DNA from: a virus
Reading direction: 5' to 3' (one strand)
Length of the DNA: 64,000 nt
IMG/VR virus record: IMGVR_UViG_3300007770_001284
Span: 186,001 to 250,000 of that record
Shown: positions 18,299-55,264 of the stretch, in pieces
Layout: each line of letters starts with the position of its first letter
Numbering within the stretch: the stretch's first letter is position 1
Translations under genes and position numbers: made by a program
Notes under the pieces: generated by a model
Told to the model about the DNA's origin: nothing
Database searches by the model: none
Seen by the model: the letters and a program-made list of their open reading frames with translations, nothing else

Positions 18299-18346
18299 CC
18301 GCGCGTATATATTTAGTCTAGTGCTTTGTTTGCCGGAGTTGTTCTT

Positions 18347-32410: not shown

Positions 32411-32579
32411 GATTTTGGTAGAAATGCGCGCAAAAGGATTGATATCTGAGACTGAGATTGTCTATAAAGAGGGTGATCTTTATGTCGCAAAGGATGTTGT
32501 GACAAATTCAAAAAGAATTATTGAGTATGGAGGCCCAGTCCGTGAGGGCCGCGGCGGTAAGAGGCTGCTCAAAGGATGA
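32385..32579 (+). CDS. Hypothetical small protein
   Basis: The 64-residue basic protein has a short helix then a beta hairpin (EIVYKEGDLYVAKDVVT) and a Gly/Arg-rich end. It overlaps the exonuclease and the chaperonin genes, so it is probably translated in the same operon. The function is unknown. Confidence 0.5.
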   Translation: MEQGTLPPEILVEMRAKGLISETEIVYKEGDLYVAKDVVTNSKRIIEYGGPVREGRGGKRLLKG

Positions 32580-36357: not shown

Positions 36358-37005
36358 ATGTATAAAAGTATTGTTACATGGCCGAATAAGACGTTGTCTA
36401 AAGTGTGTTCACCAATTACAACGGGAGAAGATTCATATCAATTCCTTGATGATCTAAAAGACACATTTCGAGTGCTCCAGGGATACGGTCTTGCAGCGCC
36501 CCAAATTGGATATTCGGTAAGCGCATTTGTTATAAACCCACAATTGCTTGAAATAGAGGACCATGAAGAAGAAGTTTTGGAAGTGATTAATCCCTCCATA
36601 TCATGTAGCGGTGAGATTGTTCGCGTTGAAGAATCGTGTTTCTCTATTCCAGAAATTTCTGCTTACGTTCCTCGTTATGAAAAATGTGTATTAACTTTTT
36701 GTGATCGTGAGGGAAACCCTAGAGAATTAAATTTGTTTGGGTTCCCAGCAGCATGTGTTCAGCATGAATTTGATCACCTGACAGGCCAGGTTTTTTTAAA
36801 TCGACTTTCTAGATTAAAGCGATCAATGCTCATTAAGAAGGTAAAGAAGACTAGAAAGCGTGATAGGGAGCTCGCGGCGCTGGTGAAAGCGCAGTTTGAG
36901 CAAGACAGCGAGCTTTATAACGGCAAATCAAGCAAGTCCTCACCGCAAAAAACAGGACGTAGTCGTAAGAAAAAAATACGCAAGAAGCGAAATAAACGAA
37001 AGTAA
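36358..37005 (+). CDS. def: Peptide deformylase
   Basis: The three family motifs are present: GYGLAAPQIG (42-51), EESCFS with the metal ligand Cys94, and QHEFDHLTG (135-143) with ligands His136 and His140 and catalytic Glu137. It removes the formyl group from nascent proteins. About 50 extra C-terminal residues are strongly basic (KKKIRKKRNKR), which may dock the enzyme on the ribosome or RNA. Motif II has Cys but an unusual ESCFS instead of EGCLS. Confidence 0.93.
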   Translation: MYKSIVTWPNKTLSKVCSPITTGEDSYQFLDDLKDTFRVLQGYGLAAPQIGYSVSAFVINPQLLEIEDHEEEVLEVINPSISCSGEIVRVEESCFSIPEISAYVPRYEKCVLTFCDREGNPRELNLFGFPAACVQHEFDHLTGQVFLNRLSRLKRSMLIKKVKKTRKRDRELAALVKAQFEQDSELYNGKSSKSSPQKTGRSRKKKIRKKRNKRK

Positions 37006-39911: not shown

Positions 39912-40793
39912 TTATTTTTTGCTTCTTCCAAATAAGCGGCCTCTTTCTTTTTTCGTTCCACCACCACGTTGTTCCAGTTCCGTTTCGATCCATTTTTTAC
40001 CAATCGGATTTTTAATAGGTCGATTGACAAATCCACCCACCGCTTTCTGTACTGCTTCGTCGACAGGGCCGTACACTGTGTTGTCAACAATCGAAATGTT
40101 TCCCTGTCCAAATAATCCTTGGAATGCGCCAAGGTTTGCTTGAACGTCTGTCCAGATTTCTTCAACTTTTTTCGGCGGCAGCTTTCTTGGTCGGTTCATA
40201 TTTCTTTCTTGCGCAACCTCAAGCGTTGTGTTGACAAAAATCATGTAGGTATCATAGCCAAGTTTTTCCATGGCCTCTTTTTTCTTTTCAATTTTGGCTA
40301 GATCATCACCGGTTCCATCGATAATAACACCGAGCCGTGCCGTTGACTTTGTGTATTGCTGCGTAGCTGCTGTCTTGTATTGTTTTGCTTTCCCTCGAGG
40401 TGAGCTGGCAGGTACACCACGTTCATCGTCAAGTCCTAGCTCATAAGCTTTTTCGGGATCTTCTCTTGCAATTCTTGCAAGATCGCCTGGGTCGACACCT
40501 GCTTCTTCAAGATATTTTTCAAAAGCTGGATCAGAGTTAATAATTTTAAGTCCCATGGCCGTCGAAGCCGACAATTCATTTGCGAGGCTTCCGCCAAAGA
40601 GCACTTTTGCCGTAAAGCTTTTTCCGCTTCCTGGACCGCCAGCCATAAAGACAGCTTTAAGAATTCCAGGATCGTAGATACCTTCGCTTAATAATTCTCT
40701 GATCGCTTCTCGGAGCGTGATCAGTTCATGCTTTGAAAGCTCTTCTCTAATAATATACTGTAATTGCTGTTTAGAGACATTTAGCTTTTTCAT
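39912..40793 (-). CDS. Zeta-toxin/AAA_33-like P-loop kinase with targeting helices
   Basis: The 293-residue protein has Walker A GGPGSGKS (52-59), a substrate DGTGDDLAKI segment and a late MNRPRKLPP arginine loop, as in zeta-toxin and polynucleotide-kinase-like P-loop proteins. Before it lie two targeting-type helices: KQQLQYIIREEL (8-19) and LREAIRELLSE|G (28-38). I infer a virion-packaged kinase. The inner ATG is preferred because it begins exactly at the first helix; an earlier ATG lies 18 bases upstream. Downstream gene of the FtsZ-like gene on the same strand. Confidence 0.72.
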   Translation of the reverse strand: MKKLNVSKQQLQYIIREELSKHELITLREAIRELLSEGIYDPGILKAVFMAGGPGSGKSFTAKVLFGGSLANELSASTAMGLKIINSDPAFEKYLEEAGVDPGDLARIAREDPEKAYELGLDDERGVPASSPRGKAKQYKTAATQQYTKSTARLGVIIDGTGDDLAKIEKKKEAMEKLGYDTYMIFVNTTLEVAQERNMNRPRKLPPKKVEEIWTDVQANLGAFQGLFGQGNISIVDNTVYGPVDEAVQKAVGGFVNRPIKNPIGKKWIETELEQRGGGTKKERGRLFGRSKK

Positions 40794-40859
40794 TGCTATT
40801 CCATCGCACACATACGCTTTTCATAAATATGCGGTCCGGCCAGATAAAAATGCTTAAGC

Positions 40860-42092
40860 TTATAGTCCACCAAGTAATGTAATAGCAATCAACCCTGGAA
40901 TTCCTTCTTTTACATAGATGCCAGAGAAAACAGTATTTGCTCGACCACCGACGTATGAGAATGCTGACTCAAGTCGTCTTCCGACTTCGGGGTCCGAAGC
41001 CATGTTATTGTCCACCACCAGCAGCAGTGCACCTGTTTCTGTGTTTCCGCTTGGTGTAGGACAAGGAGATGAACGCAAGCACCCCTGATAGACAAGAGAA
41101 CCAAGGTCGTTCCTATTAACATCTCTAACAACTGTGCTTCCGATAACCATACGACCTGCTGTGCTCAAGCAGCGCTCCAAGTCCTTTGTATCAAATGTCT
41201 GGATTTCTGTATGCTCTGACGCAAGCTTAAAGACTTGCCACAAAAGCTTAGCAAAGTTTTTATTGGCTACTGGCATCATGTTGAGAAGACCAGTCCTACC
41301 ACGGAGCAACTGTAATTGTCTCTCGTTGTCTATTACAATATGGGGGCTAGTGCCTACATCACTCATAAGTGATTGATAATTCGACTTGATAGTGGGGTTG
41401 AGAAGCTCTTGAGCTGTTGGTTTCGTTACGATATAGACAACACGACCTGCTGCTTCAATTGACTGTAGGTAGCGGCTTAATGAAGAATCTAATTCGTGGC
41501 ACGCGCTACCGGTTCCTCCACCACCACCGGCGATAACGAATAACCAATCGACCTGTCCGATTCGTGTTCGAGCAGCATCTTCAACAAATGCGCTGTTTTC
41601 TGCTAACACTTTTTTTCCAAGTGTGATATCTTTTCCAACACCATCCGCTCCGGGAACAAGAACAAAATGTTGCGGATCAACTCCGCCCGGCTGGTCCTTT
41701 TCAGTTGTGTTAACAAGTATTGTCTTACTGAATCCGAGATCGAGAAATGCTTTTGCAATTTTCCCTCCCCCTCCGCCAACGCCTATGAATCCACAATTAA
41801 TAGCTGAAACAGCTGTGTTGTCGGGGAGTAGTCTTTCGTCTGTGGCCGCGGGATCATCATCGTAGGCCATTACGAAATCAAAATCATCTCCCGCATCTGG
41901 GATGTTGATATGTGCATCGTCCGTAGGATTATCGCTTGTTTGCGCTTGCTCTTCGATAGCTTTGTCATTGTCGGGCATAATTTTTTTTAACCTCTCAGAA
42001 ATAATAGTGTCTGGGTGTGGCTTTATTTTCTTGTTCTCTTCTATGTTGGTGGGTTGTTCTAGTCCAACGCGGTTCCAAGATGTAGAAGCCAT
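40860..42092 (-). CDS. FtsZ/tubulin-like GTPase
   Basis: The 410-residue protein holds the tubulin/FtsZ signature GGGGGTGSA (189-197), an N-terminal nucleotide strand FIGVGGGGGKI (103-112) and a T7-loop-like segment with Asp301 and Asp304 (TFDTKDLERC). Thus both halves of the polymer GTPase site are kept. The first 95 residues are a charged, probably disordered extension. Related phage tubulins (PhuZ) centre or move DNA and capsids; this one looks closer to FtsZ. GGAACGAGG precedes the ATG. Confidence 0.9.
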   Translation of the reverse strand: MASTSWNRVGLEQPTNIEENKKIKPHPDTIISERLKKIMPDNDKAIEEQAQTSDNPTDDAHINIPDAGDDFDFVMAYDDDPAATDERLLPDNTAVSAINCGFIGVGGGGGKIAKAFLDLGFSKTILVNTTEKDQPGGVDPQHFVLVPGADGVGKDITLGKKVLAENSAFVEDAARTRIGQVDWLFVIAGGGGGTGSACHELDSSLSRYLQSIEAAGRVVYIVTKPTAQELLNPTIKSNYQSLMSDVGTSPHIVIDNERQLQLLRGRTGLLNMMPVANKNFAKLLWQVFKLASEHTEIQTFDTKDLERCLSTAGRMVIGSTVVRDVNRNDLGSLVYQGCLRSSPCPTPSGNTETGALLLVVDNNMASDPEVGRRLESAFSYVGGRANTVFSGIYVKEGIPGLIAITLLGGL

Positions 42093-42562: not shown

Positions 42563-43318
42563 ATGCCTATACGAAAAATAGTTGCATTTGATTTTGATGA
42601 CACGCTGGCGGTTACTGAATCGCGAATCGGTGTTCAGCGCCCAGAGGCAGCTGGAACGTCCTCTCCCACGTTAGAAGACTGGTTGCTAGACCACAATATT
42701 CAATATATGGATGTAACGGGTACGGGTGGTAATGAGTTTTATTGGTTAGATTCTGCAAATTTTGCATTGTATGAAGAGCATGCTGAAGGATTTGAGGATG
42801 TGATTGATTACGTTGGGACATCTTCATTTGATGTGAGCAAAGCTCAAGTGATTACCCCAATGTTAAAAAAGCTGGTTGAAGCAGAATCAGATCCTGATAC
42901 GCTAGCATTAATCATAACGGCGAGAGCAGGGAAGAAGCAGATGTACAGTCCGTCTCAGGGAACGTCAGTAAAGCCCTTAAACCGCTCCCAGATCCTTCAG
43001 TTCTTAAAAGATAATGGAATCAGCTTTGATGACAGCAGATTACATACAGTGGGTGACCAGGGCTCTAATAGCGCTGCACACAAGGTCAACGTATTGACTG
43101 GATATCTAAACAAGTATAAACCAGATGAGTTAATTTTTTATGATGATAACGAAAATAATGTAAGGGCAGTTGCTGCATTGTGTAAGCAATTTGCTCCGTC
43201 AGTGAAGATATCAGCTTTCCGCGTGGCAGCGGGGTGGATTTCTTCGGAATCTGGGTGCAATGAAACGGTTAATTTACGCTTGAAAAAGATACTTAGTCGT
43301 ACAGGCCGCGCTCGTTAG
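42563..43318 (+). CDS. HAD-superfamily phosphatase
   Basis: The 251-residue protein has motif I FDFDDTLA with Asp10 and Asp12, motif II ITARAG and a late acidic motif FYDDNENN. Residues 30-85 are a cap-like insertion. HAD phosphatases of phages often act on nucleotide or polynucleotide 3' ends. It has no targeting helix at the N-terminus, unlike the genes that follow. Ribosome site GAGGGAAT precedes the ATG. Confidence 0.8.
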   Translation: MPIRKIVAFDFDDTLAVTESRIGVQRPEAAGTSSPTLEDWLLDHNIQYMDVTGTGGNEFYWLDSANFALYEEHAEGFEDVIDYVGTSSFDVSKAQVITPMLKKLVEAESDPDTLALIITARAGKKQMYSPSQGTSVKPLNRSQILQFLKDNGISFDDSRLHTVGDQGSNSAAHKVNVLTGYLNKYKPDELIFYDDNENNVRAVAALCKQFAPSVKISAFRVAAGWISSESGCNETVNLRLKKILSRTGRAR

Positions 43319-43348
43319 ACGTTGGCCGCCCTAATAGGACGTGCCGGA

Positions 43349-43888
43349 ATGTCATTATTGCGAGAATATATCAAAGAAATTCTTAATGAAAGCATTGAGT
43401 TTCGGACGCTTGATTCTCCCCTTAAGTACAGTCGCGCTTCAGATATAAAAAGAATAGCACTTTGCGATACATCGGTAGAAGAACCCCACATGGGCCCTAC
43501 TGGCAAGCCCAAAATAGATGCATACTTCAACCAAAGACAAGAGATGGAATATTATGGCGCTTCGGGTCGACGATTAAAGAAACCGAGAAAGGGCCAGCTG
43601 GTTCCCGGGGTTTCTGATGCTTGCGTTATTGGATTTTTAGACTACCACAAAGAAGGTGTTTCGTCAGGCGGAAATGATATGTGGTACATTGACTATATGA
43701 AGACTCGTGGTGATAAAGGTGGCCAAGGGACTGCCAGCATGCTGATTGATGAATTTTATAACACTGTTGCCAAACCTGGTGACAACGTTAGTTTTGGTAA
43801 GATGATGCGGAAAGAGATCGGTCACCTCAAAGATAAGATGGTAGACAAGTATCCAGAAGTTAGCACTAGAGGAGCAGTGAATTTCTAA
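43349..43888 (+). CDS. Cargo: targeting helix plus GNAT acetyltransferase-like domain
   Basis: The first 15 residues are a targeting helix, SLLREYIKEILNE|S. The rest (179 residues in total) looks like a GNAT fold, with the acetyl-CoA loop GDKGGQGTASML near residue 130. The start was chosen so that the protein begins at the helix. I infer packaging into the head and removal of the helix by the prohead protease. The acetylated substrate is unknown. Confidence 0.7.
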   Translation: MSLLREYIKEILNESIEFRTLDSPLKYSRASDIKRIALCDTSVEEPHMGPTGKPKIDAYFNQRQEMEYYGASGRRLKKPRKGQLVPGVSDACVIGFLDYHKEGVSSGGNDMWYIDYMKTRGDKGGQGTASMLIDEFYNTVAKPGDNVSFGKMMRKEIGHLKDKMVDKYPEVSTRGAVNF

Positions 43889-44148
43889 TGAAAATCACAA
43901 GACGACAGATTAGACAGATCATTGCTGAAGAGCTTGCGCTCGATCTTGAGGTTGGAGACATCATACTAACCGGTCGCTTCAAGAACAAGCGAACGGTGGT
44001 CAAGAAACTTGGTACCGATGACCTGGGCCAACCGACTGTGAATGGCATGAAAGTGTTAGCGTTCAGGATTGAAAAATTGATGCCGAAAGAGAAGTGGAGC
44101 AAGAAGACAATCGCCGAACTTGAGAAGGAAGAGGAAGATAAGAAATGA
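43888..44148 (+). CDS. Cargo: small protein with targeting helix
   Basis: The 86-residue protein begins ITRRQIRQIIAEELALD, a variant of the targeting helix with the site IIAE|E. A small beta barrel (VGDIILTGRFKNKRTVVKKL) and a Lys/Glu-rich helix follow. It overlaps the stop of the GNAT gene. The function is unknown. Confidence 0.6.
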   Translation: MKITRRQIRQIIAEELALDLEVGDIILTGRFKNKRTVVKKLGTDDLGQPTVNGMKVLAFRIEKLMPKEKWSKKTIAELEKEEEDKK

Positions 44149-44825
44149 GGTTAACTGAATCTGCTTTACGACATTTGATACGCAGAACGTTGTTGGAAAA
44201 GAGCTGGGCTGATTTCCAGGCACCCAAGGGAAAGACCATCCCTATCGATCCTGCAGATTTTGCAACCAATACTCCGAACGTGCGTGACTTGGATGAAGAA
44301 ATATTTGACCTGATACAAGTTGCATATCAAGATGTCGAGCTAACGCCGGCGTCGGAAGAGGGCCCAGCGACATTTGGCAACATCAAAATTCAAAGTCCAG
44401 GGGATCTACCCTATAAATACACTATCATGAAGGGAGCCGACATAGACGAAGATCCTGACCCCGATTATTTTCGCGGCGGAAAGATGGTCAAGGGCCGATT
44501 CAAGCTGGGCATCGTCGGCCATGATGGAACTCGTGCTGCAATCGATCGCTATCTCGAAGAGACAGCAGCAGATCTAAGAGCTGGTGCAATTGCAGAGATG
44601 TCAGGGAAGATTGCACATATCATGATCACTCGACATGGAGTCCCTGCAGTTCAGACAGAGGAGGCTGTGGAAGCGATGCTAGGTAAAGAGGTGGACTGGA
44701 CAGGCCGACATCCTAACGAGAAATATGCGAATAGGTACGGGCCTGATTATGAGGCTTGGTATTGTCGTGGTATCTCGGGGGCATGCGCCGGAGACCACAT
44801 GAAGATTCTACTGGGCGGCGGATGA
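44145..44825 (+). CDS. Cargo: unknown domain with targeting helix
   Basis: The 226-residue protein begins LTESALRHLIRRTLLEKSW, a targeting-type helix. The domain is alpha/beta with a Gly/Arg/Trp-rich end (WYCRGISGACAGDHMKILLG). It is not recognised. ATGA overlaps join it to both neighbours. Confidence 0.55.
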   Translation: MRLTESALRHLIRRTLLEKSWADFQAPKGKTIPIDPADFATNTPNVRDLDEEIFDLIQVAYQDVELTPASEEGPATFGNIKIQSPGDLPYKYTIMKGADIDEDPDPDYFRGGKMVKGRFKLGIVGHDGTRAAIDRYLEETAADLRAGAIAEMSGKIAHIMITRHGVPAVQTEEAVEAMLGKEVDWTGRHPNEKYANRYGPDYEAWYCRGISGACAGDHMKILLGGG

Positions 44826-45292
44826 TGCAATTATTGAACGAATATGCAAGAGAGATTATGACATCGCAGGTTGACTCCGGATGTATTGATCTACGTGTAC
44901 GTGGCTTTAAAGTTAACGCTGAGCTGGCAACAACGACAGAAGCAAGAAATCGAGGCTTGATGCATAGACAATCGATGAATGAGGATGATGGTATGTTGTT
45001 CGTTTTCCCTGACACCGACTATCGTTCATTTTGGATGGAGAATACCTTCATCCCGTTGTCGATTGCTTATCTAACAGAAGCTGGAAAAATTATTAATATA
45101 GAGCGGATGCATCCTTTTAACCGAACTTCTGTAAGGTCAACAGAGCCAGCAAAGTATGCGCTAGAAATGAATGCTGGCTGGTTTAAGAAGCGAGGCGTTC
45201 AAGTTGGTGATGTTGTAAGTGGTATTTCTTCCATGAACGAGTCTATGCTCCGCGAGTACGTAAGAACTTTGCTAATAGAACAGAGCGGGTAA
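44822..45292 (+). CDS. Cargo: DUF192 domain with C-terminal targeting helix
   Basis: Residues 18-130 match DUF192: ELATTTEARNRGLMHRQSM and FWMENTFIPLSIAYL, with the conserved Pro/Asp pattern. In bacteria such domains are secreted, usually of unknown role. The N-terminus LLNEYAREIMTS is helix-like, and the last 20 residues are a second targeting helix, MLREYVRTLLIE|QSG. A motif at the C-terminus is unlike the T4 arrangement. It may be trimmed at both ends. Confidence 0.75.
   Translation: MMQLLNEYAREIMTSQVDSGCIDLRVRGFKVNAELATTTEARNRGLMHRQSMNEDDGMLFVFPDTDYRSFWMENTFIPLSIAYLTEAGKIINIERMHPFNRTSVRSTEPAKYALEMNAGWFKKRGVQVGDVVSGISSMNESMLREYVRTLLIEQSG
45248..45280 (+). other. C-terminal targeting/cleavage motif
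   Basis: Codons for LREYVRTLLIE lie at the very end of the DUF192 gene, with predicted cut LLIE|Q four residues from the stop. Confidence 0.6.
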
Positions 45293-45295
45293 TTC

Positions 45296-46933
45296 ATGAC
45301 TCTCCTCCGCGAATGCGTAAAAGAAATGCTTGTAGAAAGTAATGTACTTGCTACAGGAATGTGTTTTCCTTTCGCATACCAGAAAGCTGAAGAGTGGTTT
45401 AACGATCACTTTACGAAGGCTAAGCCGGGCCGCGGCCCAAAGAGGCACCCGAACTTAAATGACAAGAGTAAGTTCAAAGTTGTTCATGGTACAGTAACAG
45501 ATAAGTGGAAGAAGCCGCCGAAGCCAGTTGTTCATGGGTGGGTTGAAATGGGAGATCTAGTCTTTGATGATCAGACCAGAATAACAAAACCAAATGGTAT
45601 TGAAAAAGAATTCTATTACGATATGTATCAGCCTGAGGTGTACAAGGAGTTCACTGCTGAAGAGGCTATACTCAATTGTGCGATGAAGGGTGGTGAAGGG
45701 CCTTGGGATGATGATCTCTATGTGATGATGCAGGACCGTGATGCATGGATGAATGAAGCGCTACTTCGAGAAGCTACCGCGATTCGTGAGCCGTTAAATC
45801 TCTCTGTACCAGAAGACTTGAAAGATATCCACCGTCGTATGCAGCAAGCGGGAAAAGAATTATATGTCGTTGGAGGTGCTGTTCGTGATGCGTTGATGGG
45901 GAAGACTCCCAAAGATTACGATGTCGCTACGAATGCAACTCCAGACCAGGTGATTCGAATTTTACAGAGCCATGGCAGACTCAGGCTTGACTTAACAGGA
46001 AAAGCTTTTGGTGTGGTGAGAGTGAAGACCCCCGACAAAAATGAATACGAGATTGCAACATTTAGAGAAGATATAGGCCCCGGTCGTCGACCTGAGGGCG
46101 TGGCATTCACCAGTATAGAGGGTGATGTAAAAAGACGCGATCTGACAGTGAACGCGTTGTTCTATGATATGAATACAGGCGAGGTCGTTGATTACGTTGG
46201 TGGAATAAAAGACATTGAAGACGGCGTAATTCGAGCCGTTGGAGATCCAGCCCAACGTTTTGATGAAGACAGGCTACGTATTTTACGTACTATTCGATTC
46301 GCAGGCCGAATGGGCGCAGAGCTGGATCCTGCTACAAAGGCTGCAATTCTTAAAGACAATAGTTTGACTGATGTTAGCCCAGAGCGTATAAGGGAAGAAT
46401 TTTTGAACGGTGTTAGTTCTGCTGCTAACCTTGATCACTTTATAAACCTGATAACAGAACTGGGATTGTTTGAGCAGATATTCCCGGGTCTTCAAATTAC
46501 ACCGCTTTCTGGTACAGCCAGCAATCCGTATGTACAGGTTGCAGCATTGCTGGGTGATAATGCATCACAAGATACGCAGCAGGTGCTGGAAGAAATGCGT
46601 TATTCTCGTAAGCAGATTATTCTTATTAATTTTTTGATTCGATTGAAAAGCATCACAAAAGAAACTGCGCCCCAATTAAAGAAGGACTTCATTCGACACA
46701 AGATTTCTATTAATGATATTGAGGATTTCGCAGCTGTCACCCCTCAGCTTTCTGATCGTGTTGTTCAGGGCTTTTTGAAATTTGTTTCAAATCCGCCAGC
46801 CAGCAATCCACAAGAGCTAATGGCTCAAGGCCTTGCAGGTGAAGCAATAGGACAAGCTATGAAGGCAGCTGAGGTTGATGCATATTCGAGTTTGGTTGGC
46901 GAGTTAAGGTCGTACATACGGGAGCTATTATGA
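45296..46933 (+). CDS. Cargo polyprotein: papain-like domain and tRNA-nucleotidyltransferase domain
   Basis: The 545-residue protein starts with a targeting helix (LLRECVKEMLVE|S). Residues about 20-150 have Cys (GMCFPFAYQKA), His (HGWVEMG) and Asp (VFDDQTR) spaced like a papain/transglutaminase fold. Residues 185-530 are a class II CCA-adding/poly(A) polymerase: GGAVRD (193-198), Asp207/Asp209, RRDLTVNAL and RFDEDRLRILRTIRFA. It may have another site near LLREA (156-160) and ends with a helix LRSYIRELL. It could mature phage tRNA-Asn, which lacks encoded CCA, or alter host tRNA after injection. Confidence 0.82.
   Translation: MTLLRECVKEMLVESNVLATGMCFPFAYQKAEEWFNDHFTKAKPGRGPKRHPNLNDKSKFKVVHGTVTDKWKKPPKPVVHGWVEMGDLVFDDQTRITKPNGIEKEFYYDMYQPEVYKEFTAEEAILNCAMKGGEGPWDDDLYVMMQDRDAWMNEALLREATAIREPLNLSVPEDLKDIHRRMQQAGKELYVVGGAVRDALMGKTPKDYDVATNATPDQVIRILQSHGRLRLDLTGKAFGVVRVKTPDKNEYEIATFREDIGPGRRPEGVAFTSIEGDVKRRDLTVNALFYDMNTGEVVDYVGGIKDIEDGVIRAVGDPAQRFDEDRLRILRTIRFAGRMGAELDPATKAAILKDNSLTDVSPERIREEFLNGVSSAANLDHFINLITELGLFEQIFPGLQITPLSGTASNPYVQVAALLGDNASQDTQQVLEEMRYSRKQIILINFLIRLKSITKETAPQLKKDFIRHKISINDIEDFAAVTPQLSDRVVQGFLKFVSNPPASNPQELMAQGLAGEAIGQAMKAAEVDAYSSLVGELRSYIRELL
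46904..46930 (+). other. C-terminal targeting motif at a frame junction
   Basis: Codons for LRSYIRELL end the nucleotidyltransferase gene, and the next gene starts on the ATGA overlap right after them. The next gene itself has no N-terminal motif. Confidence 0.55.
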
Positions 46934-48549
46934 AGATGTATCATGCAACCACTCCAGCAAATGCTCGTGATATATTAGCGAACGGTCTTGAGGTTGATGC
47001 TACCGGCGAAGCGGGCTATACCCAGGTGCACGCTCAATGGGCAGACCAGCTTTATGGTATGCGGCCTGTTTTTCTATCTGTTAAAAAGGGAAAATTCGCC
47101 GGGATTCCCTTGTTGGTCGACACAGAGGGATTATCCCTTGTAGCGGATTTAGCAGCTGTCGCAGACCTGGGAGACGAGCCCCCCAGCTTGGATGGAGATG
47201 AACTTATTTGGTGGGATGGAATCGGTCCAGAAGAATTATCCCCTATAGCAAGTGACGGCGCGGTCAATATAGAAAATTTGCTTGTTCCCGGAAGTAGGGA
47301 AGCCAAGTTAGCAATTGCAGTTACGGGAACAGCGGCAGTGTTGGAAGATATTCCGCCTGATAGAATCAAGATTGCTTCATATAATGAAGCTTTCCTACGC
47401 GAGTATGTAAGAGAGGTGTTGAGCGAAGAAGTGGAACGCCAAACGGTGGGAAGCGTTTTAGACGCTTTAGGAGCGATAAAGGGCGTCGATGATGAAGCCC
47501 AGCGCAAAGAGCGTATGAAAAAGCTTGCTAAGAAAATTGGTTGGGAAATGGTCAAATTCATTCCTGTGGTTGGAAAAGGAATCAAGATGGCCAAGACAAT
47601 CGGTGATATTTACAAATTAGCAAAAGACACTCCCGATGATCTGGCCACGAAAGACAACGTCGTTCTAGACATGCTGGATGTTGATGATAAGTATCAGCAA
47701 ATGTTGGATGATCGGCTTGAAGCTGCATTCGATGAGGTCGTGATTCCTTGGCTCGAAAGCCTTCCACCAGATGCTCCACTCCCTGACATGAATAATAAAT
47801 TGGAGGCTTGGGTTAATCAAAATTTCGATGAGCGAGGAATCCACGGCGCAGCCGGGGGTGTACCAGCTAGTTCATCTCCTGTAATGAAGCAAGAAAATGT
47901 CGAGTTATCGTTGCGTCAGTACGTAAGGACAATGTTGGAGGCCGGTGAACTTGGTCGGCAAATATTTTCTGATAGGGCTCCGCTGGGACGTCATATGGGA
48001 TCCGAAAGAGACACAGAGCTAGAGGGAGAAATTTGGACGGCATTATGGGGTCACCTGCAAGGCCTTAGTTCAAAAGTGCCTACAAACTTGCTAGATGCGA
48101 TGGTAAGTTTTTCCAAAGATCCAGCTTATAACGACGTTTTCATACTACATACGAGTGGCGACGCCTACCGCGGCATGGAAGTTTCACAAGAATACTTGGA
48201 TGAACACGCGCCTGGCTGGAAAGAAGCAACATGGCCAACATCGAAACTTCACTGGCAGTGGTCTGATGTTATCCCGGTTGATTTCGAATATCAAAACCGG
48301 AATGAATCAAGAACAGTGTCTTCATGGACTCCATCAAGAGACGTGGCCGAGCAATTCGGTCGAGCCGGACACGGTATGGTGGGAGTAGTTTTAATCGCAG
48401 ATTCGGCAACGAATACGTTTCTTGACTTGAAGGAATTGTACAGATTCGATCGTCTAGACGACTTTCATTGGGAAGAGGAGATCGTCGGATTTGGTTCCGT
48501 TCGAGTTAAGGGAATTAAAATCTTGAAGAAACTCGGGGGGCTCGGATGA
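46930..48549 (+). CDS. Cargo polyprotein: two ADP-ribosyltransferase-like domains around a helical domain
   Basis: The 539-residue protein has three parts. Residues 1-150 begin MYHATTPANARDIL, like ADP-ribosyltransferases of the H-Y type. A targeting helix LREYVREVLSE|E (156-166) leads to a helical, partly hydrophobic domain (FIPVVGKGIKMAKTIGDIYK). A second helix LRQYVRTMLE|A (328-337) leads to an R-S-E ADP-ribosyltransferase: Arg414 (AYRGM), Ser464-Ser465-Trp-Thr and Glu515-Glu517 (HWEEEIVGF). T4 Alt is a packaged ADP-ribosyltransferase, so an early-injection role fits. Targets are unknown. Confidence 0.75.
   Translation: MKMYHATTPANARDILANGLEVDATGEAGYTQVHAQWADQLYGMRPVFLSVKKGKFAGIPLLVDTEGLSLVADLAAVADLGDEPPSLDGDELIWWDGIGPEELSPIASDGAVNIENLLVPGSREAKLAIAVTGTAAVLEDIPPDRIKIASYNEAFLREYVREVLSEEVERQTVGSVLDALGAIKGVDDEAQRKERMKKLAKKIGWEMVKFIPVVGKGIKMAKTIGDIYKLAKDTPDDLATKDNVVLDMLDVDDKYQQMLDDRLEAAFDEVVIPWLESLPPDAPLPDMNNKLEAWVNQNFDERGIHGAAGGVPASSSPVMKQENVELSLRQYVRTMLEAGELGRQIFSDRAPLGRHMGSERDTELEGEIWTALWGHLQGLSSKVPTNLLDAMVSFSKDPAYNDVFILHTSGDAYRGMEVSQEYLDEHAPGWKEATWPTSKLHWQWSDVIPVDFEYQNRNESRTVSSWTPSRDVAEQFGRAGHGMVGVVLIADSATNTFLDLKELYRFDRLDDFHWEEEIVGFGSVRVKGIKILKKLGGLG
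47395..47427 (+). other. Internal targeting/cleavage motif, domain 1-2 junction
   Basis: Encodes LREYVREVLSE (residues 156-166); predicted cut LSE|E between the first ADP-ribosyltransferase-like domain and the helical domain. Confidence 0.6.
47911..47940 (+). other. Internal targeting/cleavage motif, domain 2-3 junction
   Basis: Encodes LRQYVRTMLE (residues 328-337); predicted cut MLE|A before the R-S-E ADP-ribosyltransferase domain. The P4 residue is not Leu or Ile, so this site is weaker. Confidence 0.5.
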
Positions 48550-50354
48550 GCTTGCTTCGAGAATATGTTAACGTCCCTCCAGAGGAAGAACTCCACCCAA
48601 GTCAGATGAAGACTGTCGGTGAGATCTTGGATCTTATCGAACGTATCCAAGAAGAAACAGACGAAGCCGGCCGTCGGGTGCGTAGTGCAAATGTCGGGAT
48701 TGAATTCATAAAGATCGCCATGGGGGAGATACCACTCGTTGGTGGTGCGCTTGGTGCCGCAGATGGATTATTTGCCATGTACCAAGCGGGGAAGAATGAG
48801 GAACACACCTGGGCCGAGCTGGAAGAGTATCCCATTCTGGCTCGGATGAAGATGCACCCTTCTTTGGCCAAACACCTCGATCCTGTAACACTGAAAGAAA
48901 TTGATAAAGCATATCAGGGCTATCTTCAGGGTCTTGGTCGCGAGACGCTAGTCAGCGAAATCACAGATATCGATAATTTTACGCATGATTGGATTATGGG
49001 TGATACAGACAGCAAGCTTAGCGTGGAGCTCCTACGTGAGTACGTAAGAGAACAATTTCTACTTGAAAGAGAGGAAGCAGAAGCGTCCCTGCTTTCAGGG
49101 GTGAGTGACTTTATAGAGACTCGTCATTATGATGACGTGTTAGATGCTGCGTTTAAACGCATAGCCCCTGGTTTAGTTCGTCATGTCATGGAGCAAGAAA
49201 TCAACGAGGATGTTGCTGAATTTCTTGATGGCGCAATAGAGGGTCGGTGGGAGAAACAAAAAGGGTGGTCTTTTGAAGATCCAAGTCCAAAACAGTTGGG
49301 TCACTCTGAGGATTCTGCCGATTACATATTGGGGTACTCATGGGGCTGGAATAATGCAGACTCGTGGGAAGGTAATCGATTGCCGACCCAAGCCAGGAAA
49401 GAAGCAGTTGAGGCGCAGATCGCAGAATTTGAAGATCAAATATCTGAGCAGATGGTCATTGCGGCGCTGGAAACTGCCAATGAAAAGGTTAACCCCGTTA
49501 AGCTCATCAAAAAGGCAATTGGTGCAATTCGTAGTGCAGTTCGGGAAGAGGGTCTTTCTGGTGGCCTCAAAAAGGGCTTGCCTATCGCGATAGGAATTAT
49601 TGTAGGGGAGGCACTCGATAATTTTATTATACCCATGGCATTCTTTTCGATGACCGGCATTCCCATCCCTCCGCTTCCGATTGGAGTGGGGGAAATCATT
49701 AATCCCGTAGTGATCAGTATGGTCGGTGCCGATATAGAGTCAGACGAACTAGTTGATGAGCTAGGGTGGTACGAGGAAGAGTACGGAGAGGCATCTTCGC
49801 TGGGTCCTCGAGAGACGAACGAGTTACGTGCGTATATACGAGAAGCGTTACTTACAGAGTATTGGCCTGCCCGTACAGAGGGCAAGAAAAATGTCTGGCG
49901 TGGCATGAAGATCAAGATGTCACCAGCTATTTTGGCTTCAAAGGTCCGTCAGTACATTAAGACTGGCGAAGAGAAAGGAATTACGCAGCAAGAATTGATA
50001 AGATTTTTGCTTGGCCGTCTTGAGGGCGAAAGTACGGGTGCATCATGGTCGCTCAGCTTTGATGTTGCTGTTAGTTTTGCAGATGCCTGGGGAGCAACAA
50101 ACCGTGGCGCCGAACTCCACGTCATATTTCAAGCCACGGTCGATGAAGAAGCTGGATACGATCCTCAGGCTGCAGGCGAAGAGCCCGGCTTGTTTTACGA
50201 TGAGGCAGAAGTAAGGTTTAAGCCTGGCGCTGAGATACCTCTCACTGGAATTTACGTCTTTATCAAGTCTAAGGATCAGTGGGCCAAGCAAAGGACTCAG
50301 TTCCGGCCTCTAATGATAAAGGCAGAAGACAATCCGATGATGGTAAAGGCATGA
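48546..50354 (+). CDS. Cargo polyprotein: helical domains, membrane segment and R-S-E ADP-ribosyltransferase
   Basis: The 602-residue protein starts SLLREYVNVPP. A helical domain (15-150) resembles the middle domain of the preceding protein (IPLVGGALGAADGLF). A motif at 163-174 (LREYVREQFLLE) leads to a domain with hydrophobic segments (PIAIGIIVGEALDNFIIP, IGVGEIINPVVISMVG). A motif at 427-438 (LRAYIREALLTE|Y) leads to an ADP-ribosyltransferase: Arg452 (VWRGMKI), Ser500-Trp-Ser502-Leu-Ser504 and Glu553-Ala-Glu555. The hydrophobic parts could aid membrane crossing, which is speculation. Four-base overlaps join neighbours. Confidence 0.78.
   Translation: MSLLREYVNVPPEEELHPSQMKTVGEILDLIERIQEETDEAGRRVRSANVGIEFIKIAMGEIPLVGGALGAADGLFAMYQAGKNEEHTWAELEEYPILARMKMHPSLAKHLDPVTLKEIDKAYQGYLQGLGRETLVSEITDIDNFTHDWIMGDTDSKLSVELLREYVREQFLLEREEAEASLLSGVSDFIETRHYDDVLDAAFKRIAPGLVRHVMEQEINEDVAEFLDGAIEGRWEKQKGWSFEDPSPKQLGHSEDSADYILGYSWGWNNADSWEGNRLPTQARKEAVEAQIAEFEDQISEQMVIAALETANEKVNPVKLIKKAIGAIRSAVREEGLSGGLKKGLPIAIGIIVGEALDNFIIPMAFFSMTGIPIPPLPIGVGEIINPVVISMVGADIESDELVDELGWYEEEYGEASSLGPRETNELRAYIREALLTEYWPARTEGKKNVWRGMKIKMSPAILASKVRQYIKTGEEKGITQQELIRFLLGRLEGESTGASWSLSFDVAVSFADAWGATNRGAELHVIFQATVDEEAGYDPQAAGEEPGLFYDEAEVRFKPGAEIPLTGIYVFIKSKDQWAKQRTQFRPLMIKAEDNPMMVKA
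49032..49067 (+). other. Internal targeting/cleavage motif
   Basis: Encodes LREYVREQFLLE (residues 163-174), between the helical domain and the hydrophobic domain. Confidence 0.5.
49824..49859 (+). other. Internal targeting/cleavage motif
   Basis: Encodes LRAYIREALLTE (residues 427-438); predicted cut LLTE|Y directly before the ADP-ribosyltransferase domain. Confidence 0.6.
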
Positions 50355-50902
50355 ACCTCCTCCGTGAATGCATAGAAGAGCTGCTCCGTGAGTCTCATTT
50401 TCCATTGACAGGTGGAGAGAAGGTGCGCATCCACCACAGCCGACAAGACACTAGAGACGGTAAAGAACCACAGATCAGTGGTTTTTCACAGAGGGTTGGC
50501 TACAAGCCCAGTGGTCTGTGGTATGAATGCAAAGACGGTAGCTCGATAGACTGGCTGGAATTTTGTAGGACGGGCCTAACGGACGGTGCAAGTAGATATG
50601 ATAGCGCATATAACGTTGTCTTGAATGATTATGAAATCTTGTTCATAACAGATAATCATGATTTTAAGAAATTTGAGAAGATGTACGGCGTTCCCAATAG
50701 CTACGGGGACATCAAGATTGACTGGCCAAAGGTCGCAAGTCATTATGACGGTATTGAGATCTGTCCCTATCTATGGAAAATGCGACCGGACTCGGACTGG
50801 TATTACGGGTGGGACGTAGCGTCAGGGTGCGTGTGGAACGCGTCTGGAATAAAAGAACTTATAAGTGCAGAGGAGGGTTGTGAAGATGAATCCGCTGCGT
50901 GA
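50351..50902 (+). CDS. Cargo: targeting helix plus unknown domain
   Basis: The 183-residue protein begins NLLRECIEELLRE|S. The domain has strongly patterned motifs (YKPSGLWYECKDG near residue 60, then IDWPKVASHYDGIEICPY and WYYGWDVASGCVWN), so it is a real conserved fold that I cannot name. The spacing of aromatic and acidic residues might suit an ADP-ribosyltransferase or hydrolase, but that is speculation. The start overlaps the previous stop. Confidence 0.6.
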   Translation: MNLLRECIEELLRESHFPLTGGEKVRIHHSRQDTRDGKEPQISGFSQRVGYKPSGLWYECKDGSSIDWLEFCRTGLTDGASRYDSAYNVVLNDYEILFITDNHDFKKFEKMYGVPNSYGDIKIDWPKVASHYDGIEICPYLWKMRPDSDWYYGWDVASGCVWNASGIKELISAEEGCEDESAA

Positions 50903-51368
50903 GTATATAAGAGAGATCTTGACCGAAGACGCTGACTCTTCTGGAGTCACTATCAGAGTACAAAATTATGGAAATGGAGTCGCAGCTGCTATAATGATGA
51001 GCGGAATGAGAATAGGCTCAGCTACAGCTCGCGAAGTTCTTAAGTACGAGCACTGTACAGAAGATGTAGAGAAACTCAAAGCTCAGGGTTATGATTACGA
51101 TAATCCGAAATTTCCGACCCTGGGGCCGACGCTATATGCGATAGGAGAATCTCATGTGGATGAAGCTTTTAGGGGATTTGGATACGGTAAGAAGTTATAC
51201 AAGGCAATAATTGAAGAGATTGGTAAGCATGTTGGTAATCGTGGTGCCTTTGTCGGCGCTGATGAGTGTGCAGCGGGTTCTACTTCCGGCACCGCGCAGC
51301 GAGTCTGGAAGTCGGTGGGTCGTGATTACCCATCATCTGGTAATGTAGTTTATGTGGGACCAAAATGA
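50886..51368 (+). CDS. Cargo: targeting helix plus GNAT acetyltransferase
   Basis: The 160-residue protein begins NPLREYIREILTE|D. The GNAT acetyl-CoA loop is FRGFGYGKKLYKAIIEE (near residue 100), preceded by SHVDEAFRG. This is the second acetyltransferase of the cargo cluster. Its start overlaps the previous gene's end. Confidence 0.78.
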   Translation: MNPLREYIREILTEDADSSGVTIRVQNYGNGVAAAIMMSGMRIGSATAREVLKYEHCTEDVEKLKAQGYDYDNPKFPTLGPTLYAIGESHVDEAFRGFGYGKKLYKAIIEEIGKHVGNRGAFVGADECAAGSTSGTAQRVWKSVGRDYPSSGNVVYVGPK

Positions 51369-52009
51369 ACCTGCTTCGCGAATATATCCGAGCTCTGCTC
51401 ACCGAAGCTGCCAAGACCGTGGAAGATCTTCCTGAGGGTGCTTTCGTGACAATACTAAAAAGGTACGGCGGTTCATCAGTGTTCGTATACATCGGCGATG
51501 AGAAGGGAAATCGGTGGAGGACTAGAGAGGAGCACGGGGAGAGGTATGATAATTCCATACACGCAGGAATAGAAATTGCCAAGCCAAGACCGTCAGAGAC
51601 CGGACCTTGTGGCGATGCATTCGTGGTGGAAGGTTCTGGAGCAACTCACGGTTGGGGTCCGTTAGTATATGATGTTGCAATTGAGTACGCATCGCTTGAC
51701 GGATCTGGCGGCTTAATTTCAGATAGAAGTTCGGTTTCTCCTTATGCTCGACGTGTATGGGAATACTATATGAACAACCGACCGGACGTCACAGCGCATC
51801 AATTAGATGACATGAAAGATACGCTAACTCCAGAATGGGAAGATAACTGCCAGCAGTGGATAGCCATGAAGACAACGGTACCAGCATTCACCGCAGAAAA
51901 ATCTGATGATACTCGCTGGGTTGATTCACCGCTCAGTAAGAGATACACGGCACCTCCCAAAACCATCGATGCGCTTCGTGCAGCTGGAAAACTGGTGGAG
52001 ATTGAATAA
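51365..52009 (+). CDS. Cargo: targeting helix plus conserved unknown domain
   Basis: The 214-residue protein begins NLLREYIRALLTE|A. The domain includes GPCGDAFVVEGSGATHGWGP, then LVYDVAIEYAS and VSPYARRVWEYYMNNRPDV, a regular alpha/beta pattern that looks conserved. I do not assign a function. Stop and next start share a TAATG. Confidence 0.6.
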   Translation: MNLLREYIRALLTEAAKTVEDLPEGAFVTILKRYGGSSVFVYIGDEKGNRWRTREEHGERYDNSIHAGIEIAKPRPSETGPCGDAFVVEGSGATHGWGPLVYDVAIEYASLDGSGGLISDRSSVSPYARRVWEYYMNNRPDVTAHQLDDMKDTLTPEWEDNCQQWIAMKTTVPAFTAEKSDDTRWVDSPLSKRYTAPPKTIDALRAAGKLVEIE

Positions 52010-52473
52010 TGAACCTTCTCCGTGAATACATAAGCGAGCTTTTGACAGAGATAAATCTTGGTCAGGGCTATGGGATAGAATATACAGCATTTGTTCTGGA
52101 CGACGCGTCACATCAGAAGCTAGCCGCTTTTGCTCCCGAAGGCTGGAAAGTCTTTGCTCATCACATGACGATTATTAATCCACCCAACCAGAAATTACGG
52201 TTACCGTCGCAATGGCTTGACCAAGACCTTTGCGTGAGAGTCGTGGGAATTGCACAATCGGCTCAGGTCATGACTGCGCTAGTTGATCTGGAAGGATTAC
52301 CTCTTCCGATGAAGGGACCAGAATATCCTCACATCACTATTGCTACGAATCCAGCAGAGGGTGGCAAGCCTGCGATGTCTAATTGGAAGTTTAAGCCAGT
52401 TATCGATAAGCATAATTTTGAGGCTATTACCTCAATCGTTGTGTGCGGCAGAATAGAGGAAATATTAAGGTGA
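52009..52473 (+). CDS. Cargo: targeting helix plus 2H phosphoesterase
   Basis: The 154-residue protein begins NLLREYISELLTE|I. The 2H fold is marked by two HxTI motifs, His52 (HMTI) and His108 (PHITIAT), that form the active site of cyclic phosphodiesterases and 2'-5' RNA ligase-type enzymes. Members cut 2'-3' cyclic phosphates or 2'-5' oligoadenylates and related signals. It could counter nucleotide-based defence or repair RNA; both are inference. Confidence 0.8.
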   Translation: MNLLREYISELLTEINLGQGYGIEYTAFVLDDASHQKLAAFAPEGWKVFAHHMTIINPPNQKLRLPSQWLDQDLCVRVVGIAQSAQVMTALVDLEGLPLPMKGPEYPHITIATNPAEGGKPAMSNWKFKPVIDKHNFEAITSIVVCGRIEEILR

Positions 52474-53144
52474 GCTTACTTCGCGAATACATCAGTGAGG
52501 TGCTGCAAGTGACTGCTCGAGTGCAACCCGAGTCCCAGATATTCTGTGACATGGACGGCGTTTTGGTAAATTTTGAAGATATGATTGTGAGATTTATCAA
52601 CGGTCTTTTGGGCGGTGGCATCTCTCCAGGGATTGAAATTACGAAGGGTTACGAGAAGAGGCTAGCAAAAGTACGCGGAGAGCTCGGTCCAGATTGGCGC
52701 GCAAAGGGTCGTCCTGATTTAGATATTAAGTCGGTTCGAAATTTTATGATGGGTGCTGTTGGAGCAAATCCTGGTCCTATATTTGCTGAGATGAAGCCAC
52801 ATGCTGACGCTCTGGAAAAACTTTGGCCATTTCTGACGGGGACTGGTCGGACTGTGAATATACTGACTGCTGAAATTAGGGCGAGAGAGGGAGCTGTTAT
52901 GACAACGGCCGAAGGGAAGGAATTGTGGATACACAGGTGGCTTAAGCCTCAACCTTCTCAAATTATTATGTCACCAGCCAAACAGAAAGCCAGGTATGCA
53001 ACGACCAACGGCATTCCCAACATACTTATTGATGATAAACTTACGACCGTCGACAGCTGGAATGCCGCCGGCGGAATTGGTATCTGGCATCTGCCGGGCG
53101 GAAGCGTAGACACTGTGGAACAGCTAAAGGAATTGGGCGTATGA
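52470..53144 (+). CDS. Cargo: targeting helix plus HAD phosphatase
   Basis: The 224-residue protein begins SLLREYISEVLQ. The HAD core has motif I CDMDGVLVNF with Asp27 and Asp29, and IPNILIDDKLTTVDSW as motif IV; residues between form a cap. It resembles 5'-nucleotidase-type HADs. A GTG start is used, right at the helix. The expected Glu after LLx is missing at the processing site, so cleavage is less certain. Confidence 0.78.
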   Translation: MSLLREYISEVLQVTARVQPESQIFCDMDGVLVNFEDMIVRFINGLLGGGISPGIEITKGYEKRLAKVRGELGPDWRAKGRPDLDIKSVRNFMMGAVGANPGPIFAEMKPHADALEKLWPFLTGTGRTVNILTAEIRAREGAVMTTAEGKELWIHRWLKPQPSQIIMSPAKQKARYATTNGIPNILIDDKLTTVDSWNAAGGIGIWHLPGGSVDTVEQLKELGV

Positions 53145-55264
53145 AAACTCAGTTGCACATATACGATTTTGATGCAACTCTTTTCATGAGCCCGATGCAT
53201 CCCGACGATTGGGAAGGTCACATCGGTCATTGGTACGATACGCTACAATCGTTGTCACCGCCCTGTGTAATCGATCCTCCCAATGATTTGTGGATAGGCA
53301 GCACAGTGTCTAGTGCACATAGCAGTATAGCCGACCCCAATGTATATGCGATTTTAATGACAGGTCGCACAAGAAAACCTGAATTAGTTGGTCGGATAGC
53401 AGAGCTTCTTGCTATGGGAGGGCTAACGTTTGAAGAGATCTTGCTTAAGCCCACTGGAGATGTTAGGACTCTGCCGTGGAAATCTTCAATGATTGAAAAG
53501 CTAGCTGAAAAATTGCCTGACTTACAAGAAGTACATATCTGGGAAGATAGAGCAGACCATCTACAGGCTTTTGTTAAGCTTGTAGAATCTATGGGACTCA
53601 CAGCGGTACCGCACTTTGTTAATGTTGTGCTCAATGCGCCCTGCGATTTAGGGAGTGTACAGCCCGACGTCGACCCTGGCGCTGTGATGGATCTCCCAGT
53701 GTTGAGTAAGCAGAATGAAAATTTAGTAAGACGATACATCAAGCTTTGTTTGGAAAAAACCGTCCGAAGCCAGAAAGACAAACGTGTCCTGTATCACATT
53801 AATCGCTTTCGTCCCGCTCGTCCCCAGCCGAAAATGTCGTATTTTCAAGAGTGGGACCCGGATGCAATTGACCCGGACACGCATGAAAGAACAGGCGACT
53901 ATGTAGACGTTCCAGGAACCGACAACTGGCAACGACACTGGCTTGATAGTCCAGTTAAGTCCGGCGTTTTCTTAACCCCCAACCCAATTGATATAGCGAT
54001 CAATCACGGTAGATCTGGTCACGTATACGCCTATAAAGTACCACAGTGGGTTATAGCTAAATCAGGTGGTTTACATCGATATGATCATGGTTCCGAAGTA
54101 CTAGTTCCTGAAGATGTCTGGAACGAGGCGGGTAAAGAGATCGAGTTCATGGGTAAGAGTATGGACAAGGAAGAGTTGTGGGATGAGATGATGCCTTCCC
54201 TGTATGGACGTGGCCACCACCGGCCAGCAACAAAACCATCCTGGATGTCCGGTGAAGAATTAAAGCAATGGAAAAAGGGTCAAAGTAAATTTAATCTCTC
54301 TGGCTTAAGAGCAACACGACATCCCGAAGATGTAATCAAAATGCTTACGTCAGATGAACAGCGAAAGGCGATTGAAGCGATTGAAGCGAAGAAAGAGGAT
54401 ATTCCTGGCTTTATTGAAAAAGGCCCAAGAGACAAAAAGGGAATTGTGGTTCCGCCATTTGGACAACTATTAGACAAGAAAGACGAAGAGCTCTTGGCTT
54501 TGCTGAACAAACACCTGAACGAAGATATATTACGTGGGTACGTGAGGGCTCTATTGATCGAAAAATCATTAACTGGCCGGAAGCTTGAGAAGGTCGCAAC
54601 ATTGATAGCTGATGAAGTTATCGAATATCTTTTAGATGAAGACCTCAGGGGTGCGTTTGCGGCACAGGGTCCGCTTGGGTTTCAAGTAGAAGTTGAGTTA
54701 CCAGAAGCAGTGTTGTGGCTGCGAAATGTGTATGTGAAAATGGAGCCAGCAGATATTTTTAACAGCGATGCAAGCTATGAATTTGATCTAGATGCGACTG
54801 ATGAGCAGCGAGAAGAATCAGATATTCGAATTAATCTTCAAATGCCAACAGACTACTCAGACGAAGAAGTAGAAAAGCTTAAAGTAGAAATTGAAGCTGA
54901 TATTCGCCACGAGCTAGAACATTCAGGACAGTCCACAGATGTCCTAATGGATGTACAGAGGAACGTCCCGGATTCTGAGATATGGAAATCCTTAGATCGT
55001 GCTGATTATTACTACACAAGTGAGGCTGAGGTGCCCTCATACGTGTCCAGCCTTGTTCTTAAATCTAAGAGGCATGAGTCGCATGCAGCGGATGAAATTG
55101 ATGAAGACCTCAATAAGATCTACGCTACAGGACTAAGCAAGGGCTACTCTGAAGAAGAGTTGTCCCCCCTGATGACAAAGATTAGAGACACTTGGCAGTA
55201 TTATTTAATGTCTCGGTGGCCTGAGCAAGAATGGCCGATTGAATTTAGGCCAGAAAATGGGTAA
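53141..55264 (+). CDS. Cargo polyprotein: Swiss-Army-Knife HAD, ADP-ribosyltransferase-like domain and HExxH protease
   Basis: The 707-residue protein has three parts. Residues 1-165 match the HAD domain of Swiss-Army-Knife RNA-repair proteins (Asp9/Asp11 in IYDFDATLFMSP, then LMTGRTRKPE and HIWEDRADHL). A motif LVRRYIKLCLE|K (195-205) leads to a domain with LYHINRFRP, GVFLTPNPIDIA, YAYKVP and GGLHRYDHGSEVL, resembling ADP-ribosyltransferase folds. A motif LRGYVRALLIE|K (464-474) leads to a metalloprotease with HELEH (590-594) and Glu628/Glu630, related to the protein at 5.7 kb. This is the largest multi-domain protein of the cluster. Confidence 0.75.
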   Translation: MKTQLHIYDFDATLFMSPMHPDDWEGHIGHWYDTLQSLSPPCVIDPPNDLWIGSTVSSAHSSIADPNVYAILMTGRTRKPELVGRIAELLAMGGLTFEEILLKPTGDVRTLPWKSSMIEKLAEKLPDLQEVHIWEDRADHLQAFVKLVESMGLTAVPHFVNVVLNAPCDLGSVQPDVDPGAVMDLPVLSKQNENLVRRYIKLCLEKTVRSQKDKRVLYHINRFRPARPQPKMSYFQEWDPDAIDPDTHERTGDYVDVPGTDNWQRHWLDSPVKSGVFLTPNPIDIAINHGRSGHVYAYKVPQWVIAKSGGLHRYDHGSEVLVPEDVWNEAGKEIEFMGKSMDKEELWDEMMPSLYGRGHHRPATKPSWMSGEELKQWKKGQSKFNLSGLRATRHPEDVIKMLTSDEQRKAIEAIEAKKEDIPGFIEKGPRDKKGIVVPPFGQLLDKKDEELLALLNKHLNEDILRGYVRALLIEKSLTGRKLEKVATLIADEVIEYLLDEDLRGAFAAQGPLGFQVEVELPEAVLWLRNVYVKMEPADIFNSDASYEFDLDATDEQREESDIRINLQMPTDYSDEEVEKLKVEIEADIRHELEHSGQSTDVLMDVQRNVPDSEIWKSLDRADYYYTSEAEVPSYVSSLVLKSKRHESHAADEIDEDLNKIYATGLSKGYSEEELSPLMTKIRDTWQYYLMSRWPEQEWPIEFRPENG
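53723..53755 (+). other. Internal targeting/cleavage motif
   Basis: Encodes LVRRYIKLCLE (residues 195-205), between the HAD and ADP-ribosyltransferase-like domains. Confidence 0.5.
54530..54562 (+). other. Internal targeting/cleavage motif
   Basis: Encodes LRGYVRALLIE (residues 464-474); predicted cut LLIE|K before the HExxH domain. Confidence 0.6.

Follow-up and report, generated by a model that had tools for sequence, protein, structure and literature searches.

Thirteen consecutive plus-strand genes of a phage (43322 to 55264) encode unrelated, mostly enzyme-like proteins, all of which bear a helix of the type LLREYIRxLLxE, or a related tag, in one or more copies. The stretch analysed, referred to here as the window, comprises 64,000 nucleotides (G000:C1:186001-250000) of IMG/VR record IMGVR_UViG_3300007770_001284, which is 254,743 bases in length and comes from a large phage that we read as marine from sample numbers and the names of metagenome-assembled genomes (MAGs). 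Coordinates are those of the window unless the whole record (G000) or a relative is named. We consider it probable, judging from the sequence, that the helix is a capsid-loading tag ending in a site for the phage's own gp21-type prohead protease, cleavage at which would free the packaged domains.

The shared helix and its predicted cut site

The ORFs of the array mostly overlap or abut. Their products include two GNAT-like proteins, a DUF192 protein, a poly(A)-polymerase/CCA-type nucleotidyltransferase, at least one ADP-ribosyltransferase (ART), a 2H-like protein, two HADs, a zincin-like end and several proteins with no assigned domain. The helix has the consensus L-L-R-E-Y-(I/V)-R-E-L-L-x-E, and several of its copies are degenerate. 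An earlier note on this DNA had claimed at least eleven consecutive helix-bearing genes, with copies at the N-terminus, the C-terminus or between domains; the number is in fact 13, and copies occur in all three positions. That note began its range at 42563, which is too early, the HAD gene at this position having no recognisable helix in the window genome; the FDFDDTLAVT HAD of one relative (L062) does have one (MRLLREYIREILSE|N).

A profile made from 11 helix copies matched 13 places in the array genes at 8.8 to 29.8 bits and one further copy at 5.5 bits; its best match in 20 shuffled proteomes, which served as the control, was 6.2 bits. For a second search, a 12-column position-specific scoring matrix (PSSM) was built from 65 copies, mostly of relatives. 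Clear copies score 13.7 to 38.9 bits on this matrix; for shuffled proteins the 99.9% quantile is 9.4 and the highest score 15.0 bits. The shuffled controls rule out chance or composition as the source of the likeness. The copies scored by profile are those of class A; genes 43888 and 44145 carry class-B or intermediate forms, which were read from the sequence and from relatives. The class-B tag of gene 43888 (MKITRRQIRQIIAEE) is related to but distinct from class A, and about ten other genes of the record have such a tag. Two more helix copies lie beyond the array, in a zeta-like kinase gene (39912-40811, minus strand) and at G000:252589-254499. For four genes, the starts at 44822, 50351, 50886 and 52470 were preferred over those of the longest ORFs.

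Gp21 of phage T4 cleaves after L/I-x-E (PMC9026906). From the window genome and its relatives, 133 distinct helix contexts were collected by means of an anchor that excluded the end of the helix. The triplet (L/I)-x-E stands in one exact register in 105 of these, one residue later in seven and one residue earlier in several (LLE|Q), so that the cut site proposed earlier at the helix end fits the T4 rule. It is intact in about 84% of the copies, with L or I at P3, E at P1 and a free P2; P1′ is S or A in 36 of 112 contexts, roughly twice the background of about 14.5%.

The earlier note proposed searching the rest of the genome for a gp21-like protease and for further tag copies, and the record contains both. 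The protease is of the gp21 type (Peptidase_S77, E 2e-25) and is accompanied by a gp23-type capsid protein (Gp23, E 1e-66). The propeptide of the latter reads ...GQILRE|QNTLGG, and in the sampled array-bearing relatives it ends in (I/V/M)L(R/K)E directly before the conserved mature region, the predicted site being placed by the motif and by the onset of conservation. The N-terminus of the protease itself reads KLLTE|W (LLTE|W in several relatives), which resembles the LIE-9 site of T4 gp21. An S77 protease was also found in 13 relatives recruited through array modules. Array contigs with no protease match are fragments of at most 124 kb, and two larger records lacking the protease (G005 and G006) gave a distant HAD match only and no array match.

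A small core gene follows the protease gene in the capsid operon, and its N-terminus (LVKECLFEILLE; IIKECVKEVIFE in G018) can be aligned gap-free with array copies, LLRECVKEMLVE among them. In most of 13 capsid operons, this N-terminus is the one ranked first by the array-derived profile; since these operons are homologous, we count the match as one piece of evidence.

The helix might instead dock the proteins to another structure in the infected cell, such as a replication or transcription complex, a tubulin-based spindle or the membrane, in which case they would never be packaged and the glutamate would merely be part of an amphipathic helix. A tubulin/FtsZ-like gene does adjoin the array, the two being conserved together in the relative L022, and helices at N-termini, joints and C-termini would suit a docking motif that acts independently of position. 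However, L or I at P3 and E at P1 with a free P2, followed by S or A, is the rule of a head protease and not that of a helix face; moreover, the capsid propeptide ends in the same site, and a protein of the capsid operon has a similar N-terminus. We regard docking elsewhere as unlikely.

The proteins might also be loaded into the head by the helix and stay uncut, the multi-domain chains working whole in the manner of polyvalent proteins. Several copies have no intact site, and in SPN3US about 80% of head proteins are uncut (PMC10052503). Nevertheless, some 84% of the copies keep (L/I)-x-E and the more complete array genomes do encode the protease, which leads us to think uncut loading quite improbable.

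Several observations weigh against loading and cleavage as we propose them. The propeptides of T4 ipI, ipII and ipIII score -15.8 to -20.6 bits on the array PSSM. The terminal glutamate is absent from three copies, namely the N-terminus of 48546 (LLREYVNVPPE), that of 52470 (LLREYISEVLQV) and the C-terminus of 45296 (ELRSYIRELL-stop). The core gene scores modestly, for the most part between 4.7 and 7.7 bits, with 2.6 bits as the value below which 99% of shuffled proteins lie. The array lies about 75 kb away from the capsid operon in this record. A late-promoter motif shared by the array and the head genes was sought and none was found, and no T4-type late promoters (TATAAATA) were found close to the starts upstream of either.

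Under the loading and cleavage that we favour, the tag would dock array proteins to the prohead core as the head assembles, and the prohead protease would cut after (L/I)-x-E, freeing the domain downstream. The freed domains would remain in the head until injected, along with the DNA, into the next host, on which they would act. The product of a fused ORF would be taken up as a single chain and split inside the prohead into separate effectors, and C-terminal copies would serve for docking only. We infer each of these steps, from packaging, docking to the core and cleavage through injection to effector function. The capsid-loading and dicing scheme of the earlier note thus stands in part: the protease, the tag copies, the cut rule, the end of the capsid propeptide and the module joints speak for it, and release at the C-terminus and the term "self-dicing" do not survive. 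The latter is unsuitable because the predicted cutter, the prohead protease, works in trans.

Module joints and the DNA that encodes them

About 20 diverged contigs carry like arrays, with 112 distinct helix proteins among them. GNAT, ART, DUF192, MCFPFA and DPMGF domains are found both solo behind an N-terminal helix and within fusions, and the HAD module is joined to several different partners across the array contigs. In the relative L022 these domains are combined differently; the modules that were compared are 40-77% identical. There the 44145-type domain forms the second half of a fused ORF, with the joint LRAHIRDVILE|KTW, and the first half has its own N-terminal helix; the HAD of window gene 53141 is joined to the GNAT of window gene 43322 via LRSYIRNLLIE|V. 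The middle module of 48546 occurs solo, with a C-terminal helix. Homology within the GNAT family begins immediately after the predicted cut. Since modules occur solo or fused across the helix and GNAT homology starts at the cut, the sequences indicate that internal helices mark module joints. Of the polyprotein claim made earlier, the part concerning internal copies is upheld, as these separate modules that are solo elsewhere; a C-terminal copy is unable to release a domain and is better explained by docking.

The DNA that encodes the helix is itself constrained in the relatives (L022-L149), where codons 3-7 read CGY-GAR-TAC-ATA-AGR beyond what codon usage and protein constraint account for. 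ATA is used in 79 of 85 cases (29% expected from codon usage), AGR in 80 of 84 (44%) and CGY in 80 of 95, and the fixation holds for both N-terminal and internal copies. The 12-mer GARTACATAAGR is almost confined to array positions. This constrained DNA may serve as a joint for recombination or as a signal at the nucleic-acid level. One could go further and suppose that the stretch is mainly a DNA-level joint for in-frame recombination of modules, the helix having little function of its own; the fixed codons, the confinement of the 12-mer and the frequency of module shuffling would all accord with this. In the window genome, however, the constraint is absent, with 110 identical helix codons against 104.5 predicted from codon usage, and yet the protein helix is kept; nor are the copies inside one genome clearly more alike than those of different genomes. 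We judge it very improbable that the stretch is mainly such a joint.

The codon counts of the window genome also rule out a DNA repeat as the cause of the helix likeness there. Recent gene conversion as the origin of the fixed codons in the relatives is unsupported, the copies inside one genome being not clearly more alike than those of different genomes.

Exact matching of a degenerate DNA pattern for M-(N/K)-LLREY(I/V)R-x-LL-x-E gave 30 stretches in 2.9 million IMG/VR contigs, with several of them often sharing a contig. Six further stretches lie in prokaryote MAG contigs from unrelated bins, one of these contigs being equal in length to an IMG/VR contig with a match, and these are probably mis-binned phage. 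The GNAT module had no match in 50,697 phage records of cultured phages. The nearest cultured capsid proteins are those of Flavobacterium phage immuto and Microcystis phage Mel-JY01, and the nearest overall is that of a 484-kb uncultured phage (LR756508). Immuto (MW353175) has repeated N-terminal tags of its own (MKKSQLRxIIKEE and FDLKKFLVENKLT) at 102294-118931, near the terminase and portal genes, one of them on a 5′-nucleotidase.

The array genes and their surroundings

The first gene of the array (43322..43888, + strand as are all 13, with an ATG at about 43349) encodes a GNAT-like domain behind the N-terminal helix MSLLREYIKEILNE|S (26.4 bits). The domain aligns with seven relatives, homology beginning at the predicted cut; the GNAT match is weak for this protein itself and better for a homologue. 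The small protein with the class-B N-terminal tag (43888..44148) has an apparent counterpart fused to the homologue of the next gene in L022:9039-10007. That next gene (44145..44825) has the N-terminal tag LTESALRHLIRRTLLE|K and a domain of no assigned family, with a 77% identical module in the fused ORF of L022. The DUF192 protein (44822..45292; E 1.4e-32) has a degenerate N-terminal helix and a C-terminal helix, MLREYVRTLLIE|QSG; in L025, a longer polyprotein begins with DUF192.

The product of 45296..46933 comprises the N-terminal helix LLRECVKEMLVE|S, a small domain, a degenerate joint and the poly(A)-polymerase/CCA-type nucleotidyltransferase, and its likeness to the tRNA nucleotidyltransferases of other phages begins only beyond residue 150 or so. 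Its C-terminal helix (ELRSYIRELL) is shortened by the overlapping start of the following gene. That gene (46930..48549) encodes a first domain that is ART-like by eye, the internal helix FLREYVREVLSE|E, a second domain, a weak internal helix (SLRQYVRTMLE) and a third domain; a Pfam search with its product gave no match. Three modules make up the product of 48546..50354: a degenerate N-terminal helix precedes a helical module, LLREYVREQFLLE a second module, and ELRAYIREALLTE|Y an ART; L025, L028 and L065 have this ART solo, preceded by an N-terminal helix. The AlphaFold model of this 602-residue polyprotein is confident in the ART part only, and its best fold matches are ART proteins at a level that is not significant, making it weakly ART-like.

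Four short genes follow, all with an N-terminal helix: a phrog_8582 domain behind LLRECIEELLRE|S (50351..50902); a GNAT-like domain with a weak GNAT match behind PLREYIREILTE|D (50886..51368; 29.8 bits), with a homologue at L022:15116; a domain frequent in the arrays behind LLREYIRALLTE|A (51365..52009); and a 2H phosphoesterase-like protein, with two HxTx motifs read from the sequence, behind LLREYISELLTE|I (52009..52473). In the 51365 family, 14 aligned members keep the helix and cut site in register. The predicted structure has a mean pLDDT of 74 with a helix at residues 3-13, of low confidence at its start. A fold search with this type of domain gave weak acetyltransferase-like matches only, and neither it nor the ART had a credible match among the sequences of solved structures.

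The gene at 52470..53144 encodes a HAD resembling 5′-deoxyribonucleotidases (phrog_2643, E 6e-16), whose N-terminal helix is the one already described as lacking the terminal E. The last gene (53141..55264) begins with a HAD (HAD_SAK_1, E 1.7e-15), which is followed by the degenerate helix NLVRRYIKLCLE, a second domain, the helix ILRGYVRALLIE|K (20.7 bits) and a zincin-like domain (HELEH). The latter was identified by eye, and relatives give weak SprT-like/MPTase matches. Upstream of the array, the zeta-toxin-like P-loop kinase (39912..40811, -; Zeta_toxin, E 1.7e-8) has tandem N-terminal tags, KQQLQYIIREE and TLREAIRELLSE|G, the helix scoring 10.1 bits. From these domain types we infer an effector role for the array proteins. 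Defence-system models gave no match.

The tubulin/FtsZ-like protein next to the array (40860-42092, -) has the motif AGGGGGTGSA and is 75% identical in L022. A GroEL-type chaperonin (32576-34159), a sigma-70-like factor (34496-35251) and a peptide deformylase (36358-37005) are also encoded. At the border of the window, Fe-S cluster assembly genes of the NifU_N/IscU, NifU and IscA types (G000:182467-186012 and window 21-623) stand beside ribonucleotide reductase, and a ClpP-like gene follows. Among the head genes of the relatives, record G014 has a tandem pair of capsid-protein genes with identical N-termini (L111:5770-9651).

The gp22-like scaffold (G000:148008-149774) ends in RWxxLAG(I/L), a tail kept in two cultured phages and in almost every relative examined. 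The same tail terminates two further proteins of the record (window 22735-23919 and 18326-19693), and in a third (G000:23201-26032) it stands close to the end; from its sequence, it is possibly a second, C-terminal loading tag. At G000:20908-29262 there is a second cluster, in which about eight genes have the class-B N-terminal tag MKITKRQLRxIIREE and several encode small acidic proteins. A broader scheme, which we put forward tentatively and with some doubt, is that this lineage fills its head by means of a few interchangeable tags (class A, LLREYIRxLLxE; class B, MKITKRQLRxIIREE; and a C-terminal RWxxLAGI like that of the scaffold). Effector domains would be shuffled between cargo genes at the constrained helix-coding joint, and polyproteins diced by the prohead protease into injected effectors.

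Relation to known systems and significance

Internal proteins IPI-IPIII and Alt of T4 share with the array a short N-terminal propeptide on otherwise unrelated proteins, in their case the capsid-targeting sequence (CTS) cut by gp21. Foreign proteins fused to the CTS are packaged, and the processing of Alt extends to its C-terminus (PMC9026906). The L/I-x-E cut site, an S77 prohead protease, a gp23-type capsid and ADP-ribosyltransferase cargo are further points in common. The array differs in its 13 genes, its many domain types, a longer helix (about 14 residues) and its internal copies. As the T4 internal-protein propeptides score very low on the array PSSM, a sequence relation of the tag to the CTS (MKTYQEFIAE) found no support in the profile test; the likeness is by eye only, and the scheme is T4 CTS-like in its working and not a proven homologue. 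Read from sequence in this way, the array is most likely a CTS-like system enlarged into a modular, partly polyprotein arsenal.

Polyvalent proteins of phages and conjugative elements combine ADP-ribosyltransferase, peptidase and other conflict domains in one chain, which is thought to be delivered to the host along with the DNA and has been likened to a polyprotein (Iyer et al. 2017, PMC5512222). Several unrelated conflict-type domains likewise occur in one polypeptide here (48546, 53141 and 45296; also in L022, L025 and L071). Release of polyvalent domains is ascribed to embedded peptidase domains (PMC5512222), whereas the joints of the array carry a shared helix with a prohead-protease site, and the array does not appear to adjoin structural genes, the capsid operon being about 75 kb distant. 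Phages phiKZ and SPN3US are similar in being large, in packaging and ejecting many proteins, and in cleavage behind a short motif ending in E. In SPN3US, however, the motif is A-x-E, the propeptides are mostly long and nine substrates were found, and the portion of that report we could draw on describes no short tag shared by a tandem array (PMC10052503).

In the literature searched, we found no description for tailed phages of a prohead protease acting on true polyprotein cargo. If our reading is correct, the prohead protease of this phage processes genuine polyprotein cargo, and virion cargo can be predicted among anonymous phage genes from one short motif. Dozens of uncharacterised domains would then be candidate injected proteins for host takeover or counter-defence, each with an exact predicted neo-N-terminus, and the helix would represent a natural modular tag for loading proteins into phage heads.

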